From: Desulfatiglans anilini DSM 4660
GTDB lineage: Bacteria > Desulfobacterota > DSM-4660 > Desulfatiglandales > Desulfatiglandaceae
DNA length: 64,000 nucleotides
Assembly (NCBI RefSeq): GCF_000422285.1
Contig: NZ_AULM01000001.1
Location: 310,001-374,000 of the forward strand
Direction of reading: 5' to 3'
A program made the position numbers and the translations under genes. Numbering within the stretch: position 1 is the first letter of the stretch; every line of letters begins with the position of its first letter. Of this stretch, positions 38,847 through 48,595 are shown in pieces. Under the pieces are notes generated by a model. It did no database searches. It saw only the letters and a list, made by a program, of their open reading frames with translations, and was not told the origin of the DNA.

Positions 38847-40316
38847 ATGGTTGATATCGGTTCGGATCTGGCGCGTGTCTTTCACCCCCGTTCGGTCGCG
38901 GTGGTAGGCGCTTCTGCATCCTTCGGCAAGTGGGGTCAGATGATTTTCAGCAATATCGTAGCCGGGAAATTTCCTGGACGGATCTTTCCCGTGAATCCGA
39001 AGGAGACCTCCTTGTATGGTTTGAAGGTCTACCCGCGGATGCAGGATATTGCCGAGGAGATCGATCTGGCGATCGTCACCACGCCGGCTGCGACGGTACC
39101 GGGTGTGCTGGCCGCGTGCGGGGAAAAGGGCGTCAAGGGCGTTGTGTTGATCACTTCCGGGTTCGGGGAGACGGACCAGGCAGGTAAGCAGCTGGAAAGA
39201 GAGATCGTGGCGCTTTGCCGCGCGAAGCGGATCCGTTTGATCGGCCCCAACACCATGGGCATCCTGAGCCCTCATTCCAGCCTTTTTGCCACAGGGACGC
39301 ATTCCCGCCCCCGTACAGGAGAGGTGGCCTTTGTCTCACAGTCCGGGAATCTCGGCAATCAGCTGATCCATTGGGCGGAGAACCAGAATATCGGGATATC
39401 GCTGTTCGCGGGTTCGGGGAACGAGGCGATGATCTCTTGTGTGGATTACCTGCGCTATCTGGAGGAGGATCCCCGTTCCCGTCTGATCACTCTCTATCTC
39501 GAGAACATTGCAGACGGGAGGGCCTTTCTCGAAACGGCGGTCCGGGTCAATCGGAGCAAACCCATCGTTGTGTTGAAAGGCGGGCGAACCGAGGCCGGTA
39601 TGCGGGCCGCGGCCTCCCACACCGGGTCGATGGGCGGCCGGGACGCCATTTTCCGTGCCGCTTGCCGGCAGGCCGGGGTGGCGCTTGTCAATGAGCCTCT
39701 GGAACTGCTCGAGCTGTCCGCGGGGTTTTCTTCTCTCCCCTTGCCGAAAGGGAATCGCGTAGGGATCGTGACCCTCGGGGGCGGATGGGGTGTAGTCACC
39801 GCAGATGCCTGCAATGAAAGGGGCTTGCAGGTTCCCTCGTTGCCGGACGGGATGGTAGCCGAAATCGGACGTCTCCTGCCTGATTTCTGGAGCCGCGGCA
39901 ATCCGGTCGATCTGGTTGGGACGCGCGACCTGGAGGTGCCGCTTGTTGCGGTCGAGTCCCTGCTGAAATGGGATGGCGTCGATTCCGTGATCAGCCTCGG
40001 CATCGTTGGGCGCGTCGAGATGGTCAGGCTACTGCTTCAGTCGACGCGCGAGGTGGATCCACAGGCGCAGCCCGCTGTGCTCGATGAACTCGAGGCGATG
40101 GCCGAGGCCTATGAGGTCAAATATGTCCAGCGGATCGTCGAACTGATGGAGCGCTACGAAAAGCCAGTTCTGGGGGTGTCCCTCGCGAGGAGCGACAAAG
40201 GGGTCGTTCGCAGCGTCCCCGGCGGGAAGTACAGCGGCGTCTTCTACCAAAGCCCGGAAAGCGCTGTGCAGACGTTGGCCTCTATGGCGGCTTACGCGCG
40301 GTTCCTCGAGAGGTAG
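38847..40316 (+). CDS. Acyl-CoA synthetase (NDP-forming) alpha-type subunit / CoA-binding protein
   Basis: 489 residues. The N-terminal CoA-binding Rossmann domain begins FHPRSVAVVGASASFGKWGQ, followed by two succinyl-CoA ligase-like domains. The phosphohistidine loop is ASHTGSMGG near residue 258. This matches the alpha half of ADP-forming acyl-CoA synthetases. The ATP-grasp beta half is not fused and not next to it, so it must act with a distant subunit or have another role. It sits opposite an enoyl-CoA hydratase 3 kb away, both fitting fatty or aromatic acid metabolism. Confidence 0.88.
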   Translation: MVDIGSDLARVFHPRSVAVVGASASFGKWGQMIFSNIVAGKFPGRIFPVNPKETSLYGLKVYPRMQDIAEEIDLAIVTTPAATVPGVLAACGEKGVKGVVLITSGFGETDQAGKQLEREIVALCRAKRIRLIGPNTMGILSPHSSLFATGTHSRPRTGEVAFVSQSGNLGNQLIHWAENQNIGISLFAGSGNEAMISCVDYLRYLEEDPRSRLITLYLENIADGRAFLETAVRVNRSKPIVVLKGGRTEAGMRAAASHTGSMGGRDAIFRAACRQAGVALVNEPLELLELSAGFSSLPLPKGNRVGIVTLGGGWGVVTADACNERGLQVPSLPDGMVAEIGRLLPDFWSRGNPVDLVGTRDLEVPLVAVESLLKWDGVDSVISLGIVGRVEMVRLLLQSTREVDPQAQPAVLDELEAMAEAYEVKYVQRIVELMERYEKPVLGVSLARSDKGVVRSVPGGKYSGVFYQSPESAVQTLASMAAYARFLER

Positions 40317-40331: not shown

Positions 40332-43328
40332 TCAAAGAGATCGCTTGAGCGCTGCGAGGTACTCGGTGGAACGATCCAGGTAGAACGCGAGCGCCCGTGA
40401 GAAATTCTTCCCGACCAGGCCGTCGACGAAGAGCAGACTGATCTGCCGCTGATTCTGGAGAACGAACTGGGTATTGAGCAGGATCGCGCGTTCCTCCGGA
40501 GGCATATTTTCGAGGATCGCCTTGAACGCGGTTCGAGCTCTCGGTTGGTACATCCAGAAGTAGAGCAAATCCAGGGAATTGATGACGATGATCCTGTGAA
40601 GGTCGGCAACCTCGCCTTTGAGCTGTTCACCCGATTCTTCAGAGGCGCGCAGCAGGTCGAGCGCGTCCTTTTCCGGCAGCAGCAGTTCGAGTTGCGCATA
40701 AACATCGAACATCTGCGTGATCTTGGTCCGATAGTCGCGCCAGCGCATCTGAATGTTCTGGTAGCGGTCGACGGTGCCCTCGATCACGCCGGCTACCAGG
40801 TCCGAGGCCAGTTTGGAAATGATCGCGGCCCATTTCTGGAGGATGAGGTCGACCGCTGTGTAACCGAAGAGGGTAAGCAGCCTGCCTGCTGTGGCATTCA
40901 CTGCGACGGCGATGGGGATGGAGAGCAGGGTCCGGAAAAAGTTGCCGAAGACGGCGCTCTTGGGCAGGCCGCGAAAGAGGTTGTGGCTGGTGAGATAAAG
41001 CCCGTTGGCCAATGCGATGCAGGCATAGAGGGCGATAGGGTTCGTGGTGGTGTTGATGCCGAATGCCCGGTCCAGAACAAGAGTCTTCACGATATAATCG
41101 AGGAGCGGAACCGAGAAACCCGTGTAGAGCAAAGAGTCGGTGATCCGCTCCCAGCTGAGATAATCGTTCCACCGGAGGAGGGGCGAGCGGCGGATGCCGC
41201 CGCCTCCGAGAACCGACTGGAGCACATTGCGCAGGCCCGTGATGCCGAACCAGATCACGGCGCCGAAATAAGCGAGCAGCCACCATTCCTTGGTCAGGTA
41301 GAACGTGAGAAACGCGGGGATGAAACCGATCAGCACCTTCAGGGCGTTCTTGACGCCCGTATTGAGGTAGCGCCAGGAGAGCCTCGGCCGGCCCTGCATC
41401 TTCTCCGGCGGGTTCAACGTGAGGCCGTTGTCCCCGGCCTTCTGGATGCCGCCGAGCGTTACGATATTGCCGGGGGATTCCATGTGGATGGACTGCTCCT
41501 GAATGACCCAGTCGTTCAGGCGTTTTTCGAATAGGAGGCTCAAGCCCGGCAAGGTGCGCATCAGCCTGAACATGATCCGTTCTCTTGTCGAGAGGTTCCC
41601 GCGCGGGATGAAGGTGCTGCGCCTGAAAACCTCGACCCGGATCGGAATCATCATCCGGGTTGCGGCCGATGGACGGGTGATTTCTCTTCGCGCCCGCAGG
41701 GGCAGCGTTTGTTCTATGGCCAGCCCCATGCCATGGACGCGGGGGGCGCGCCCCGTGGAGTCGCTTCCGATCCGGGCTTTGAGCGGCGTTCCTCGATAGG
41801 CGTCTTTGAGCGCCGAGATGTCGTGAAGGATCATGGTCAGTTTTTCGATTCGTTCCCGATTGCCGCTTCCGGCCTTCAAACGACCGATCATCGCGCGGAT
41901 CATGCCCTTCAGGTGCATCACGTTGCCATCGTTGACGGCCTGCTGAAGCTCATGAATCTGAGGGATGTGGGCGGTTTTGCCCTCGGAGTAATCCTTCAGG
42001 TTGAAGATCTCCAGACGGGTGATTGCCCCTTCGCAGTCGTACAGCAGCTCCAAAACATCCTCCACCCTGAGGTTGCTGAGATTGAGGGTCACGCGGTAGG
42101 CGGAATGGAGCCTGGCGAGGCGGTTGATCAATTCATGGGCAGGCAGTTTGAGGAGGGGGGGGAGATCAGAGCTGTCCATGGGGATGGCTGGATCGGGGAT
42201 TTCCGGGTTCTTGGACGGCTGCAGGTATTTTTCGATCAGGGCCTCTGAATCCAGGCGGTTCATTTCGTCGACCAGACCCTCCATTTCGAGGCGCCGCGTA
42301 GGGTCGGATGATGGGTAGCGCTCCCGCATCGAGGCGACGCAGTCCTTCAAGGTGTCGAGCATCTTTTTGTGGATGAATTCCCCCAGGTGAACGATGGAGG
42401 GCTGCCCGGCGCCCACAAAGGCGGCGAATTCATCCGGGTCGATCGGCTGAAGATCACAGCCGTAGGCCTTCCGCAGGGCGTGGCGGTGACGCTCGTTGAA
42501 TACCTTGAGCACCTCCCAGACGTATCGCTGCTGGTAGCGCGAGACGGCTTTGCCCTCCGACATGAAGGCCGCCACCTGGTCGTCCGCCAGGAAGCAAAGA
42601 AAGGACTGGGTATCGGGAAACCCCCGAGGCACCCAGATCAGCTGCGCATAACGGTTATGGATCCGCGTGTAGAACTCGATCCCGATCCGGACGGTGATCC
42701 CCATGATCGAGGCCGCTTCGAGCAACTCCACCGCGAATTTGGCTTCGACATAATTGTAGTAGATGACTCTGAGACGCCGAATTCCTTTGATCCAGGCGTC
42801 CATGATGAGGTGACTGGAGGTCTTGCGGCCTTTCGTGTTAACGTCATGAACGTGGTCGTCGAAGGTCGCCTGGTTCCATCCTTCGGGCATCTCCAAGAGA
42901 TGGTAACGGCGGAGCTGGCTGCGGATGATGCGGGGGTTTCCTGTGGCAGCGGTTCTGAAATCGTGGGCGAGTTCAAGTTGACGCCGCTCGTTCCCGTGGG
43001 CGCGGACCAGTTCCTTCATGATCGTCAGCAGGACCCTCGCCGTGTTGATCGGCAGGGAGCCCCCCGCGGCGCCCAGGATCTCTTCCCTCAGGGAGCGCAG
43101 TGCGCTCAGACGGTCATCCACGCCGCCGGCCTCGAGGGATTCGAGCAGGTGGATGACGGCGAAGGCGATCCGCAGGCCCTTCGATTCCGCCATCTCCTTG
43201 ATGCCGTGGGGGTGGAGGTAGGGCAGGACCAGATTCCGCACCCCTTTGCGCGATTTGTCGCGGGTGAGGACATCGTTGACGATGTTCAGCAGGTAGTCGT
43301 CCCGTTTGTCGAAAAGCAGTCTGGCCAT
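40332..43328 (-). CDS. Large protein with PHP-like N-terminal region and C-terminal membrane domain, function unknown
   Basis: 998 residues. Residues 155-218 resemble a PHP phosphoesterase core: FDDHVHD (His159, His161), the KGIRRLRVIYYN strand where PHP proteins have a TDH motif, and GITVRIGIEF (Gly-Ile-Glu at 216-218). The second metal motif is therefore altered. A helical region follows (about 220-650), then membrane segments at about 663-679, 682-700, 732-752, 763-781 and 797-825, and a soluble helical tail. I do not recognise the full protein. It may be a membrane-bound hydrolase or a binding protein. It is convergent with the CoA-synthetase gene, only 15 nt apart. Confidence 0.75.
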   Translation of the reverse strand: MARLLFDKRDDYLLNIVNDVLTRDKSRKGVRNLVLPYLHPHGIKEMAESKGLRIAFAVIHLLESLEAGGVDDRLSALRSLREEILGAAGGSLPINTARVLLTIMKELVRAHGNERRQLELAHDFRTAATGNPRIIRSQLRRYHLLEMPEGWNQATFDDHVHDVNTKGRKTSSHLIMDAWIKGIRRLRVIYYNYVEAKFAVELLEAASIMGITVRIGIEFYTRIHNRYAQLIWVPRGFPDTQSFLCFLADDQVAAFMSEGKAVSRYQQRYVWEVLKVFNERHRHALRKAYGCDLQPIDPDEFAAFVGAGQPSIVHLGEFIHKKMLDTLKDCVASMRERYPSSDPTRRLEMEGLVDEMNRLDSEALIEKYLQPSKNPEIPDPAIPMDSSDLPPLLKLPAHELINRLARLHSAYRVTLNLSNLRVEDVLELLYDCEGAITRLEIFNLKDYSEGKTAHIPQIHELQQAVNDGNVMHLKGMIRAMIGRLKAGSGNRERIEKLTMILHDISALKDAYRGTPLKARIGSDSTGRAPRVHGMGLAIEQTLPLRARREITRPSAATRMMIPIRVEVFRRSTFIPRGNLSTRERIMFRLMRTLPGLSLLFEKRLNDWVIQEQSIHMESPGNIVTLGGIQKAGDNGLTLNPPEKMQGRPRLSWRYLNTGVKNALKVLIGFIPAFLTFYLTKEWWLLAYFGAVIWFGITGLRNVLQSVLGGGGIRRSPLLRWNDYLSWERITDSLLYTGFSVPLLDYIVKTLVLDRAFGINTTTNPIALYACIALANGLYLTSHNLFRGLPKSAVFGNFFRTLLSIPIAVAVNATAGRLLTLFGYTAVDLILQKWAAIISKLASDLVAGVIEGTVDRYQNIQMRWRDYRTKITQMFDVYAQLELLLPEKDALDLLRASEESGEQLKGEVADLHRIIVINSLDLLYFWMYQPRARTAFKAILENMPPEERAILLNTQFVLQNQRQISLLFVDGLVGKNFSRALAFYLDRSTEYLAALKRSL

Positions 43329-43479: not shown

Positions 43480-44307
43480 TCAATCCATTGTTTTTTTCGA
43501 GGAATCCACAGTGTCGAATACCTCGTCCACAAACCGGGGGGGCCGGTTTTCACGCAGGGCCTCGATCCCTTCGACGACGTTGGGCCCCTGAAAAAAGCGG
43601 CTCTGCCGATCGGATTCCATCCGAAGGACATCACGGAGTTCGATGTGCGGCGCTGCGTGGACGATCTCCTTGATCGTCCGAATCGGCGCCGCGGGTTGGG
43701 CGGCGATTGTGGCAGCCAGATCCATGACGGCATCGTTCAGGGATGTTCCGGCGGTCACCTGATTCAATAGGCCCAGGGTAAGCGCCTTTTCCGCCGAAAG
43801 AATCTCTCCTGTCATGAGAAGCTGCAGGGCTCTGCCGGGTCCGGCGGTGCGGGAAAGCCAGTACTCGGCCCCCATGCCGGGATTGAGCCCCAGTTTGATG
43901 AAGGTGAAACCGATGATCGCCTCCGCCGCTGCGACGCGAAGATCGCAGGCCATCGCCAGGCAGGCGCCGGCGCCGATCGCCGGGCCGTTGACGGCCGCGA
44001 TGGTTGGAATGGCCAGTTCGGTCAGGGACAGAAATCGGCTGTAAAAGGCGCTCAACGTATCCTGCACTACAGCAGCGTCTTTCCGTGTCCACTCGGAGAG
44101 CATGGCGAGATCGGCTCCCGCACAGAAGGCGCTGCCGGCCCCTGTCAGAACCAGCACCTTGATCGCCGGGTTCGAGGCGACGGCTGTTACGGCTGCCTGG
44201 AAATCGTGGGACATCTGCACGGTCATGGCATTTCGTTCTTCAGGGCGATTGAGTGTCAGGATCCCGACCCGGTCTTCGATCTTCATGTGGATGGTCTGAA
44301 AGTTCAA
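43480..44307 (-). CDS. Enoyl-CoA hydratase/isomerase family protein
   Basis: 275 residues of the crotonase fold. The oxyanion-hole loops are GAGSAFCAGADLAML near residue 65 and AIGAGACLAMACDLRVA near residue 115; the catalytic Glu positions are less clear in LGLNPGMGAEYWLSRTAG. I take the TTG at 44307, with GGAGG 5 nt upstream, so the protein begins (M)NFQTIHMKIEDRV. It may hydrate enoyl-CoAs or isomerise them; the substrate is unknown. Confidence 0.88.
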   Translation of the reverse strand: MNFQTIHMKIEDRVGILTLNRPEERNAMTVQMSHDFQAAVTAVASNPAIKVLVLTGAGSAFCAGADLAMLSEWTRKDAAVVQDTLSAFYSRFLSLTELAIPTIAAVNGPAIGAGACLAMACDLRVAAAEAIIGFTFIKLGLNPGMGAEYWLSRTAGPGRALQLLMTGEILSAEKALTLGLLNQVTAGTSLNDAVMDLAATIAAQPAAPIRTIKEIVHAAPHIELRDVLRMESDRQSRFFQGPNVVEGIEALRENRPPRFVDEVFDTVDSSKKTMD

Positions 44308-44404
44308 AAGGACCTCCGTCAAAGCGCTGCATCAAGGGAGAAAAGGGGGTTTGGCAGGTTAAGATACCATGATCTCAATGTTTTTCGAAACATTAAATTC
44401 GTTT

Positions 44405-44579: not shown

Positions 44580-47500
44580 ATGAACCGGACAAACATACAA
44601 AAATCCAGGGATGAACGGATGCGCCGCATCCGGCAGGACATGGCCGGCGCCATGCTGCTAGACCAGGCGGCACTGGCGAAAGGGCTCAAGTCGCTGCTGG
44701 CCTCGCTGAAGAAAGGCCATGTTCCGGAGGAAGAGGTCGATAGGCAGTTCGGGCGGCTGGAAAAAAGGCTTTCCGCCTCGGTGTTCGAATGCGAGCGGCG
44801 GCGGAGAGAGCTTCCCCGGCTCGATTTTCCGGAGAATCTTCCCATCACCTCAAGGAAGGACGACCTGATTCGGGCCATTCAGGGGCATCGGGTGGTGATC
44901 GTCGCGGGGGAGACCGGCTCCGGCAAGAGCACCCAACTCCCGAAGATGTGCCTCGCGGCGGGCCGCGGCATTGCGGGGCGGGTCGGCTGCACCCAGCCGC
45001 GGCGCATCGCCGCCGCCACGATCGCCAGGCGGGTCGCCGAGGAACTCGGGGAGGAACTGGGCCGATCGGTGGGTTACAAGGTGCGCTTCAAGGACCGCAC
45101 GGACCCGCGGGCCTACATCAAGGTCGTGACCGACGGAATGCTCCTGGCCGAGACGCAGGGGGATCGCCATCTGTTTGAATACGACACCCTGATCATCGAC
45201 GAGGCCCACGAGCGCAGCCTCAACATCGATTTTCTCCTCGGGATCCTGCGAAACCTGCTCGAGGTGCGGCCGGAGCTGAAGGTGATCGTCACCTCGGCCA
45301 CGCTCGACACCGCCAAGTTCTCCGCCTTCTTCGGCGATGCGCCGGTGATCGAGGTGAGCGGCCGGATGTACCCGGTCGAGGTCGTCTATAGGCCGCTCGA
45401 CCCCGAGAGGGAAAGCGAGGGGGATCTCACCTACGTGGACCTGGCCGTGGAGGCCGTCGACAGCCTGCGAAAGGCCCGCCTGCCGGGGGACGTCCTGATC
45501 TTCATGCCGACCGAGCAGGATATCCTCGAGACGTGCGAACGGCTGGAAGGGAGGCATTTCCCCGGCGTGACGGTTCTTCGCCTCTTCGCCCGTCTGCCGG
45601 CCTCCGAGCAGGGCCGGGTCTATGCGGTCAGCGGGCCCAAGATCGTGGTGGCGACGAATGTCGCCGAGACCTCCCTGACGATCCCGGGCATCCGGTATGT
45701 CATCGACACGGGCCTGGCGCGGATCTCCCGCTATGTCCCGCGGACGCGGACGACCAGCCTGCCGATCAGCCCCATCTCGATAAGCAGCGCCGACCAGCGC
45801 AAGGGGCGATGCGGCCGCGTGCAGAACGGTGTGTGCATCCGTCTGTATTCGGAGGAGGACTACGCATCGCGGGCTCCTTTCACGCCCCCGGAGGTGCTGC
45901 GCTCGAACCTGGCGGAGGTGATCCTCCGGATGATCGCGCTGGGGCTCGGGGACATCGCGGCCTTTCCCTTCGTGGACCGGCCCAACCCGCGGAGCGTCAA
46001 GGACGGCTTCGATCTCCTGGAGGAGCTGGGGGCGATCCGGCGCAGGGGCCGGAAGGTCCTCCTGACGGAAAAGGGCCGCCTCATGGCGCGCATGCCCCTG
46101 GACCCGAAGATCGCGCGGATGATGCTGGAGGCGGTCCATGAGGGCTGCGTCGATGAAACGGCGGTGATCGCCGCGGCGCTGAGCGTCCAGGACCCCCGCG
46201 AGCGGCCCCTGGACAAGGCCGCCCAGGCCGATCAGATGCACGCCCCGTTCAAGGATCCGGACTCGGATTTCGTGACCCTCCTGAACATCTGGAACCGCTA
46301 CCACGGCCACTGGGCCGGGCTCAAGACCCAGAACCAGATGCGCCGCTTCTGCAGGACGCAGTTCCTGTCCTTTCCCCGCATGCGGGAGTGGATGTACATC
46401 CATGAGCAGATCGTCTCGATCCTGAACGAGCGGCGGCTGAAAGGACCGGCTGAACCGGCCGCAGCCGGTCTTGACCCGCTCTACGACCGGCTTCATCGGG
46501 CGGTCCTGAGCGGCTTCCTTTCCAACATCGCGCTCAGAAAAGAAAAGAACCTCTACCAGGCGGCGCGGGGTCGCGAGGTCATGGTCCATCCGGGATCGAG
46601 CCTTTTCAACAAAGGCCGACCCTGGATCGTCGCGGCTGAGATCGTCAAGACCTCGCGGCTGTTCGCCCGCACTGTGGCCCGCATCGATCCGGGCTGGCTC
46701 GAGGCCCTTGGCGGGGACCTGTGCCGGCGGAGCTATGCGGAGCCTCATTGGGAGAAATCGCGCGGTGAGGTGAGGGCCTATGAGCAGGTCACCCTTTACG
46801 GCCTCCCGATCGTGGCGAGGCGGCCGGTATCCTACGGGCCCATCCGCCCGGAGGAGGCCCACCGGATCTTTGTCCAGTCGGGCCTGGTCGAAGGGAGCAT
46901 CAGGGAGCCCCTGGGGTTTTTGAAGCACAATCGGGCCTTGATGGAGGCCATCGGCGCCATGGAGGAGAAGATCCGCCGCCGCGGCCTGATGGTGAACGAG
47001 GAGGCCGTGGCTGAATTCTACTCGTCCAGGCTCGCCGGCATGTGCGATGTCAGAACCCTCAAAAGGGTGATCCGCGAAAGGGCCGGGGACGCCTTTCTGC
47101 GCATGCGGGAGGAAGACCTGGTGCAGGAGCTTCCGGATCGGGCGGAGCTGGAGCGGTACCCGGACCGGATGGTGCTCGGGAACAAGATTTTTAGCTGTTC
47201 CTACCGGTTTTCCCCCGGTGCGGAGGAGGACGGCGTGACGATCCGCATACCGGCGGGGGCCCTTTCGGAGGTGCCGGCCGAACGGCTCGAATGGGGGGTG
47301 CCGGGCCTTTACCGTGAGAAGATCGCGGCCTTGATCAAAGGCCTTCCCAAGCGTTACCGAAAGCAGTTGGTCCCGGCTTCCGCCACAGTGGATATCATTG
47401 TGGCGGAGATGGAACAGGGGAGTCGCCCGCTTATCAGCTCCCTGGCCCGGTTCGTCTACGAGCGGTTCGGAGTGGAGATCCCCGCGGCCGAATGGGCGGC

Positions 47501-48542
47501 GGTGGAGCTGCCCGAATACCTCAAGATGCGGGTGGCGGTCGTGGACGAGCAGGGGAAGGAACTGGAGGCGGGCCGCGATATCCACCTCCTCGAATACCCC
47601 GGGGGGACGGCGGCGCACGCGGTGAACACCCTGCCTCAGTGGAAGGACGCGCAGGCGCAGTGGGAAGAGGAAGACGTCAGAGACTGGACCGTGGGCGAAC
47701 TCCCGGAGCGCATCCCTCTCGACGACTGCCTCGACGCGTACCCGGCCCTGGCGGCCGACGACGGCGGCCGCGTGAACCTGCGCCTGTTTCCGGACCGCGA
47801 TCAGGCCGCCGCGGTGCACCGGGAGGGGATCAAGCGCCTGCTCGAGCTCCGTCTCGCAAAGGATCTGAAGTATCTCAAGCGCTCCGTGTCGCTTGCGAAA
47901 GAGGCCTCGCCCGGCGCCGTCTATTTCGGCGGAGCACGCAGGGTGGAAGAGCAGATCTACGAGGCCGTCCTCGAAGGCTCCCTCGCGTTGGACCTTCGGA
48001 GCCGGGAGGCATTCGACCGGCATGCGGCGGTCCTCCGGGAAGGCATATTCGAGGAGGCGGCCGTGCTGCGCGAGCAGGCCGAAAAGGTCTTGAAGTCTTT
48101 CGAAGAGACCCGCGGAGCGCTCTATGACCTCGAGCGGGCCAATGCGACGAACGAAGAGGTCCTGGCCCTTTGCGCCGGCCTTCGCCGCGAACTCGATGCC
48201 CTCCTGCCGCCGGATTTCATTCGGCGGTACGCCCCCGATCAGCTTTCCAACATGCCCCGCTACCTGAAGGCGATCCAGTTGAGGGTTGAACGCGGAGCCT
48301 ACGACCCCGCCAAGGACCGGCGGAAGCAGGCCGATGTCGATCCCTTCGTCGAGGCCCTCCAGACGATGACCGGTGCCCTTTCCCCGCGCACCTCCCGGGA
48401 GAAGAGGGAGGCGCTCGAAGCCTTTCGCTGGATGGTGGAGGAGTTCAAGGTGTCGCTCTTCGCCCAGGAGCTGAAGACCCCCTACCCCGTTTCCCCCAAA
48501 CGCCTGGAAGAAAAGCGGAAAGAGCTCGAGCGGATGATCTGA
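44580..48542 (+). CDS. hrpA: ATP-dependent RNA helicase HrpA (DEAH box)
   Basis: 1320 residues, close to the E. coli protein. Walker A GETGSGKST lies near residue 112, DEAH near residue 207, SAT near 239 and QRKGRCGR near 407, followed by the winged-helix, ratchet and OB-fold parts and the long DUF3418 C-terminus. HrpA rescues stalled ribosomes and remodels RNA. AGGAA precedes the ATG. Its very GC-rich second half creates a 1243-codon antisense open frame that is not a gene. Confidence 0.97.
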   Translation: MNRTNIQKSRDERMRRIRQDMAGAMLLDQAALAKGLKSLLASLKKGHVPEEEVDRQFGRLEKRLSASVFECERRRRELPRLDFPENLPITSRKDDLIRAIQGHRVVIVAGETGSGKSTQLPKMCLAAGRGIAGRVGCTQPRRIAAATIARRVAEELGEELGRSVGYKVRFKDRTDPRAYIKVVTDGMLLAETQGDRHLFEYDTLIIDEAHERSLNIDFLLGILRNLLEVRPELKVIVTSATLDTAKFSAFFGDAPVIEVSGRMYPVEVVYRPLDPERESEGDLTYVDLAVEAVDSLRKARLPGDVLIFMPTEQDILETCERLEGRHFPGVTVLRLFARLPASEQGRVYAVSGPKIVVATNVAETSLTIPGIRYVIDTGLARISRYVPRTRTTSLPISPISISSADQRKGRCGRVQNGVCIRLYSEEDYASRAPFTPPEVLRSNLAEVILRMIALGLGDIAAFPFVDRPNPRSVKDGFDLLEELGAIRRRGRKVLLTEKGRLMARMPLDPKIARMMLEAVHEGCVDETAVIAAALSVQDPRERPLDKAAQADQMHAPFKDPDSDFVTLLNIWNRYHGHWAGLKTQNQMRRFCRTQFLSFPRMREWMYIHEQIVSILNERRLKGPAEPAAAGLDPLYDRLHRAVLSGFLSNIALRKEKNLYQAARGREVMVHPGSSLFNKGRPWIVAAEIVKTSRLFARTVARIDPGWLEALGGDLCRRSYAEPHWEKSRGEVRAYEQVTLYGLPIVARRPVSYGPIRPEEAHRIFVQSGLVEGSIREPLGFLKHNRALMEAIGAMEEKIRRRGLMVNEEAVAEFYSSRLAGMCDVRTLKRVIRERAGDAFLRMREEDLVQELPDRAELERYPDRMVLGNKIFSCSYRFSPGAEEDGVTIRIPAGALSEVPAERLEWGVPGLYREKIAALIKGLPKRYRKQLVPASATVDIIVAEMEQGSRPLISSLARFVYERFGVEIPAAEWAAVELPEYLKMRVAVVDEQGKELEAGRDIHLLEYPGGTAAHAVNTLPQWKDAQAQWEEEDVRDWTVGELPERIPLDDCLDAYPALAADDGGRVNLRLFPDRDQAAAVHREGIKRLLELRLAKDLKYLKRSVSLAKEASPGAVYFGGARRVEEQIYEAVLEGSLALDLRSREAFDRHAAVLREGIFEEAAVLREQAEKVLKSFEETRGALYDLERANATNEEVLALCAGLRRELDALLPPDFIRRYAPDQLSNMPRYLKAIQLRVERGAYDPAKDRRKQADVDPFVEALQTMTGALSPRTSREKREALEAFRWMVEEFKVSLFAQELKTPYPVSPKRLEEKRKELERMI

Positions 48543-48595
48543 GCACGATGCCTGTATGACCGAAGGGCGCAAGATATCCACCCGCCCGAGCCGTA

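Follow-up and report, generated by a model that had tools for sequence, protein, structure and literature searches.

Does a large membrane protein that displays only fragments of a PHP metal site belong among the PHP phosphoesterases, and what has then become of that site? The question is raised by a gene in a stretch of 64,000 nucleotides from Desulfatiglans anilini DSM 4660 (the window, whose numbering is used for all positions). The first-pass annotation of this DNA described a 998-residue protein with recognisable HxH and GIE motifs, a strand reading VIYYN where TDH was expected, and at least five membrane segments.

The gene and its family

The ORF at 40332-43328 on the minus strand begins with ATG and has exactly the 998 codons given in that annotation. 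This start is supported because relatives align from M1 across their whole length and keep F6, D7 and D10. A copy from a congener, 97% identical, differs by 94 synonymous and 31 non-synonymous changes (dN/dS 0.098), and this ratio, together with the full-length relatives, identifies the ORF by sequence comparison as a real gene. Its immediate neighbours are a convergent CoA-binding/succinyl-CoA-ligase-like gene (38847-40316, plus strand) and, oriented like the ORF itself, an enoyl-CoA hydratase gene (43480-44322, minus strand), and neither adjacency is kept in relatives. Further along, a 1243-codon open frame (44850-48581, minus strand) lies antisense to an HrpA-type helicase gene (44580-48542, plus strand; a DEAH helicase with DUF3418) and is probably a high-GC shadow frame. 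The parts of the protein are as follows, with the basis of each assignment in brackets (AF2, AlphaFold2).

40332..43328 (-): whole gene, 998-residue membrane protein (ORF, full-length alignments, dN/dS)
42879..43328 (-): residues 1-150, predicted N-terminal all-helical domain, no known relative found (AF2 secondary structure)
42612..42872 (-): residues 153-239, predicted first half of PHP barrel, strands 155-160, 185-191, 212-223 and 226-234 (AF2, VIA-align, profile)
42822..42860 (-): residues 157-169, DDHVHDVNTKGRK, PHP motif I with H159 and H161 (profile, alignments)
42753..42767 (-): residues 188-192, VIYYN, position of PHP TDH(D) (profile, alignments)
42672..42683 (-): residues 216-219, GIEF, E218 corresponding to RNase AM Glu72 (profile, alignments)
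42114..42611 (-): residues 240-405, predicted helical insertion in the barrel (AF2, profile)
41649..42113 (-): residues 406-560, predicted second half of PHP barrel, strands 411-416, 438-443, 517-521 and 536-538 (AF2, VIA-align)
42000..42014 (-): residues 439-443, LEIFN, E440 and N443 invariant (alignments)
41754..41768 (-): residues 521-525, GSDST, position of PHP GSDxH (motif reading, not profile-aligned)
41724..41732 (-): residues 533-535, GMG, invariant (alignments)
40773..41360 (-): six predicted membrane helices, residues 657-679, 683-709, 726-755, 764-786, 790-820 and 826-852 (AF2, hydrophobicity, charge count)
40335..40772 (-): residues 853-998, predicted extension of helix 6 and C-terminal helical domain, conserved, LDLLYFWMYQPRAR (AF2, charge count)

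Pfam, NCBIfam and PADLOC contain no match to the protein, and its best hits among PHROGs (E 0.13) and PDB sequences (E 0.84-1) are not significant, in agreement with the earlier remark that this is not a known family; searches of plasmids and of the literature returned no match and no paper on the family, respectively. A scan of genome contigs nevertheless yielded at least 393 relatives (592 pattern matches), the best 80 of which are all delta-proteobacterial (Desulfobacterota), being assigned to Desulfobacteraceae/Desulfobacterales, Desulfobulbaceae, Syntrophales, Desulfovibrionaceae, or unspecified delta/proteobacteria; the family is one of sulfate reducers and related bacteria. Of 395 genomes sampled evenly across the window's phylum, 44 have the gene, and members of one genus (g99) often have two copies. 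A divergent group, subfamily B (L123, L165-L171), is about 28% identical to the window protein and occurs in other families of the same phylum. A Desulfovibrio-like genus carries divergent pairs of copies (L115/L116, L117/L118, L119/L120), and four proteins (L026, L034, L046, L049) have some 15-20 additional residues in the C-terminal part (1013-1017 alignment columns relative to the window protein). Residue counts below refer to 127 sequences, some of them near-identical; a 100-sequence alignment was used for AlphaFold2.

The PHP barrel and its metal site

The AlphaFold2 model (pLDDT 85.7, pTM 0.85) places a PHP fold, a (beta/alpha)7-like barrel, at residues 153-612, the barrel extending to about 560-612 and being interrupted by a helical insertion at about 240-405. 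In VIA-align comparisons the closest structures are BAD_1165 (3e0f; Z 20.4, 257 residues aligned, rmsd 2.9), Cv1693 (2yb1; Z 19.1, 259 residues) and RNase AM (9etk; Z 18.8, 265 residues); each of the top 25 rows is a PHP-domain chain, the remaining PHP proteins go down to Z 10.7, and all non-PHP folds score at most 6.3. The only four significant Foldseek matches in the PDB are likewise PHP proteins, namely BAD_1165 (two entries), Vibrio cholerae RNase AM and Cv1693. A comparison independent of the model was provided by a profile of 27 RNase-AM-type PHP proteins from the window's phylum, seeded with a protein related in sequence to 3e0f, 9etk, 2yb1 and 7ug9: hhalign aligned it to the PHP region of the family with a probability of 93-95%, E-values of 2e-8 to 3e-7 and a score of 58.7, as against at most 25.5 for 40 column shuffles and 21.5 for the reversed profile. 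This alignment extends from strand 1 through strand 4 and on into the helical insertion, in which GRPHIA of the RNase-AM-type proteins is matched to GQxSxxHLA of the family, so that the start of the insertion (residues 240-405) is itself profile-aligned; the second half of the barrel gave no significant match to the same profile.

It is scarcely credible that the protein is unrelated to PHP enzymes and matches their motifs by chance. Such a view could appeal to the lack of any Pfam PHP match, at any E-value, in the window protein and eight relatives, and to the absence of the gene from the PF02811 matches of its own genome, but a fold Z of 20 and a profile score more than twice that of the best shuffle speak against it, and the fold comparison refutes it unless the AlphaFold2 model is wrong. 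Predicted fold and profile thus indicate descent of the domain from phosphoesterases of the RNase AM/Cv1693 type, and, within the limits of prediction, its PHP origin is settled. The first-pass annotation was right to see a PHP-like domain, and the predicted fold is not the unrelated one that would have spoken against it, but the domain begins near residue 153 and not at the N-terminus. With RNase AM (YciV), the 3',5'-nucleotide bisphosphatase Cv1693 and BAD_1165 (7ug9, 9etk, 2yb1, 3e0f/3o0f) the family shares the barrel with a helical insertion and the order of the HxH, GxE and GSD motifs, its E440 matching their invariant Glu of the 'GxE' strand; unlike them, it adds the N-terminal helical domain, the six-helix membrane domain and the helical tail.

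RNase AM binds manganese at its alpha site through His13, Glu72 and Asp255, while Glu72, His83 and His198 form the beta site and Asp20, His45 and His257 the gamma site, and its activity is disrupted by each of D20A, E72A and D255A/H257A (PMC9410882). By profile, His13 corresponds to H159, His15 (taken as the second His of HxH, which is our own reading) to H161, Asp20 to K166, His45 to Y191 and Glu72 to E218; by strand order and motif, His83 falls near Q229, His198 near N416/L417, Asp255 at D523 and His257 at T525. Motif and strand order had to be used for D523, T525 and N416/L417 because the second half of the barrel is not profile-aligned. The HxH and GIE seen earlier are H159-V-H161 and G216-I-E218, and VIYYN is V188-I-Y-Y-N192, with Y191 at the His45 position.

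Loss of TDH, correctly noted in the first-pass annotation, is one part of a broader loss, since the SDG Asp, the strand-4 His, the AHP His and the SDxH His have also gone, and five of the nine ligand positions of the three-metal site (RNase AM/Cv1693) are changed in the window protein. Position 166 is Lys in 120/127 sequences, Glu in six and Leu in one, and never Asp; position 191 is Tyr in 115/127 and the motif-assigned position 525 is Thr in 113/127, and neither is His in any sequence. At position 229, Gln in the window protein, His is found in eight of the 127 (three of the main family and all five aligned members of subfamily B). None of the 127 has His at position 416, and in the 100-sequence alignment only L123 has it at 417; this protein reads NHP where its relatives read NRP, SRP or IRP. 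On this sequence evidence no member retains the gamma site and very few the beta site, unlike RNase AM, Cv1693 and BAD_1165; subfamily B may keep part of its beta site because of the His at 229.

The alpha site was overlooked in the first-pass annotation and is mostly intact. The tetrad H159/H161/E218/D523 is complete in 106/127 sequences, including the window protein, with H159 retained in 127/127, H161 in 119/127, E218 in 122/127 and D523 in 111/127. On a FastTree phylogeny the incomplete states fall into separate groups and need five changes by parsimony: H161Y with D523S/N in eight sequences that form a single clade of Desulfovibrio-like paralogues, E218S in five sequences of one clade, D523G in three sequences and D523A in subfamily B. 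In the two-copy genomes, L116, L118 and L120 have an intact tetrad, and both H161 and D523 are replaced in L115, L117 and L119. As read from the alignments, the alpha tetrad is kept in most members and is dispensable on several branches.

A new set of invariant residues, a further difference from RNase AM, Cv1693 and BAD_1165, accompanies these losses. D157, H159, D162, G167, R168, K169, E440 and N443 are identical in 127/127 sequences, and G533-M534-G535 in 100/100 of the 100-sequence alignment; the set holds across subfamilies only 28% identical, and its members other than H159 are not PHP metal ligands. By strand order, residues 157-169 (after strand 1) and 440-443 (end of strand 6) would lie on the usual ligand side of the barrel. 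Because the metal ligands are mostly lost and these other residues are invariant, the PHP domain probably serves a new purpose at the membrane.

Membrane domain and gene neighbourhood

The first-pass annotation placed at least five membrane segments in the C-terminal half, a count that becomes six here (residues 657-852). Loops predicted to be inside carry on average 3.2, 2.7, 2.0 and 5.6 Lys/Arg, compared with 0.66, 0.66 and 0.04 for those predicted outside, and because Lys/Arg concentrate in the inside loops the PHP domain and the tail are predicted to be cytoplasmic (N-in/C-in). Modelled alone, the membrane part reached a pLDDT of 82 and a pTM of 0.66. Foldseek found no convincing relative of it in the PDB (best E 0.76) or among viral proteins (BFVD, best E 0.27), and the best VIA-align score for the isolated part (Z 6.2, to a helical repeat) is no match, a result that does not prove a new fold. 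SpecificRecomb (PF10136) was considered as a relative of the membrane domain and rejected, as there was no Pfam match and the hhalign score of 19.2 against two true members was noise.

No neighbour is conserved across the family, neighbours varying by locus. A conserved operon was ruled out, the biggest cluster of neighbours being a mixed collection at scattered positions. The one repeated association is with glycerophosphodiester phosphodiesterase (GDPD, PF03009), a separate protein whose gene lies beside or near the family gene in several lineages. It is directly downstream on the same strand in three related loci (L011, L012, L019; 75-88% identical) and directly upstream, again on the same strand, in L123 and in L198, where it overlaps the family gene; these subfamily B arrangements, in which the two genes overlap or abut, lie at L198:5998-9568 and L123:7077-10712. 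In all five cases the adjoining GDPD is the sole one found in the genome, three of these five genomes being of 1.8-2.1 Mb with completeness not reported. GDPD occurs within about 20 kb in 7 of the 75 family-bearing genomes, where random placement predicts 0.86, for an association that was chosen after inspection of the neighbourhoods; its support is moderate because the seven genomes represent about three lineages. GDPD has no match in the window's own genome, nor was it seen fused to a family protein. The linkage hints at phospholipid metabolism.

Possible roles of the barrel at the membrane

The model that we tentatively prefer is one in which a three-metal PHP phosphoesterase has turned into a phospho-ligand-binding pocket that works with the membrane domain. 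The protein would be an inner-membrane protein whose soluble N-terminal two-thirds include the PHP-fold domain and are followed by the membrane domain of six helices and by a helical tail in the cytoplasm. The three-metal site, dismantled as the alignments show, keeps a single-metal alpha tetrad in most members, and the basic side chains of K166, R168 and K169 would bind a phosphorylated or anionic ligand in the former metal pocket, the state of which would be passed to the membrane domain, or which would position a substrate there. We infer that the likeliest setting would be phospholipid head-group or glycerophosphodiester metabolism, because GDPD adjoins or lies near the gene in several lineages.

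The complete alpha tetrad of most members, the window protein included, fits a metal enzyme equally well. The protein could be a working membrane hydrolase that cleaves a phosphate ester offered to it at the membrane and binds a single divalent metal through H159/H161/E218/D523, with D162, K166, R168 and K169 replacing the roles of the other two metals. This second choice, a less probable but serious one, draws on the invariance of H159 and the high retention of the other three residues, on their correspondence to the RNase AM alpha-site ligands (PMC9410882), and on the GDPD linkage, which suits a chain of phosphoesterases. However, H161, E218 and D523 have each disappeared on one branch or another without loss of the rest of the protein, and the positions of Asp20 and His257, where D20A and D255A/H257A disrupt RNase AM (PMC9410882), are altered in all members. 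An unlikely third reading, ranked below both, makes the PHP domain a structural scaffold only and leaves the work to the membrane domain, perhaps as a transporter or channel. There is a precedent in E. coli DNA polymerase III alpha, for which such a role has been proposed and whose degenerate PHP domain has lost several metal ligands, keeps its fold and stabilises the enzyme (PMC3666897). In both cases a degenerate PHP domain lies inside a large protein (VIA-align Z 12.8-13.4), and conservation within the family is as strong in the membrane part (mean column identity 51%) as in the PHP part (48%). Yet the family differs from Pol III alpha in being a membrane protein without a polymerase and in having strictly conserved new residues at the barrel mouth, and a mere scaffold hardly accounts for the invariant D157, H159, D162, R168, K169 and N443 there; nor does the membrane domain have a transporter-like fold match.

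The preferred ligand-pocket model has a stronger form, which we regard as rather doubtful, in which a PHP barrel without metals serves as a basic ligand pocket that controls or feeds a membrane domain whose fold is so far absent from solved structures, and which would define a new class of lipid-handling or signalling membrane proteins. Whichever role applies, there has been no family model for this conserved protein, which is some 1000 residues long and occurs in hundreds of genomes from a phylum of central environmental importance. The protein links a PHP barrel to a membrane domain for which no relatives are known, and in it the barrel retains its fold as the metal chemistry goes site by site, subfamily B holding a different subset of ligands. 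With this family one can test directly how a metallo-phosphoesterase becomes a different kind of protein.
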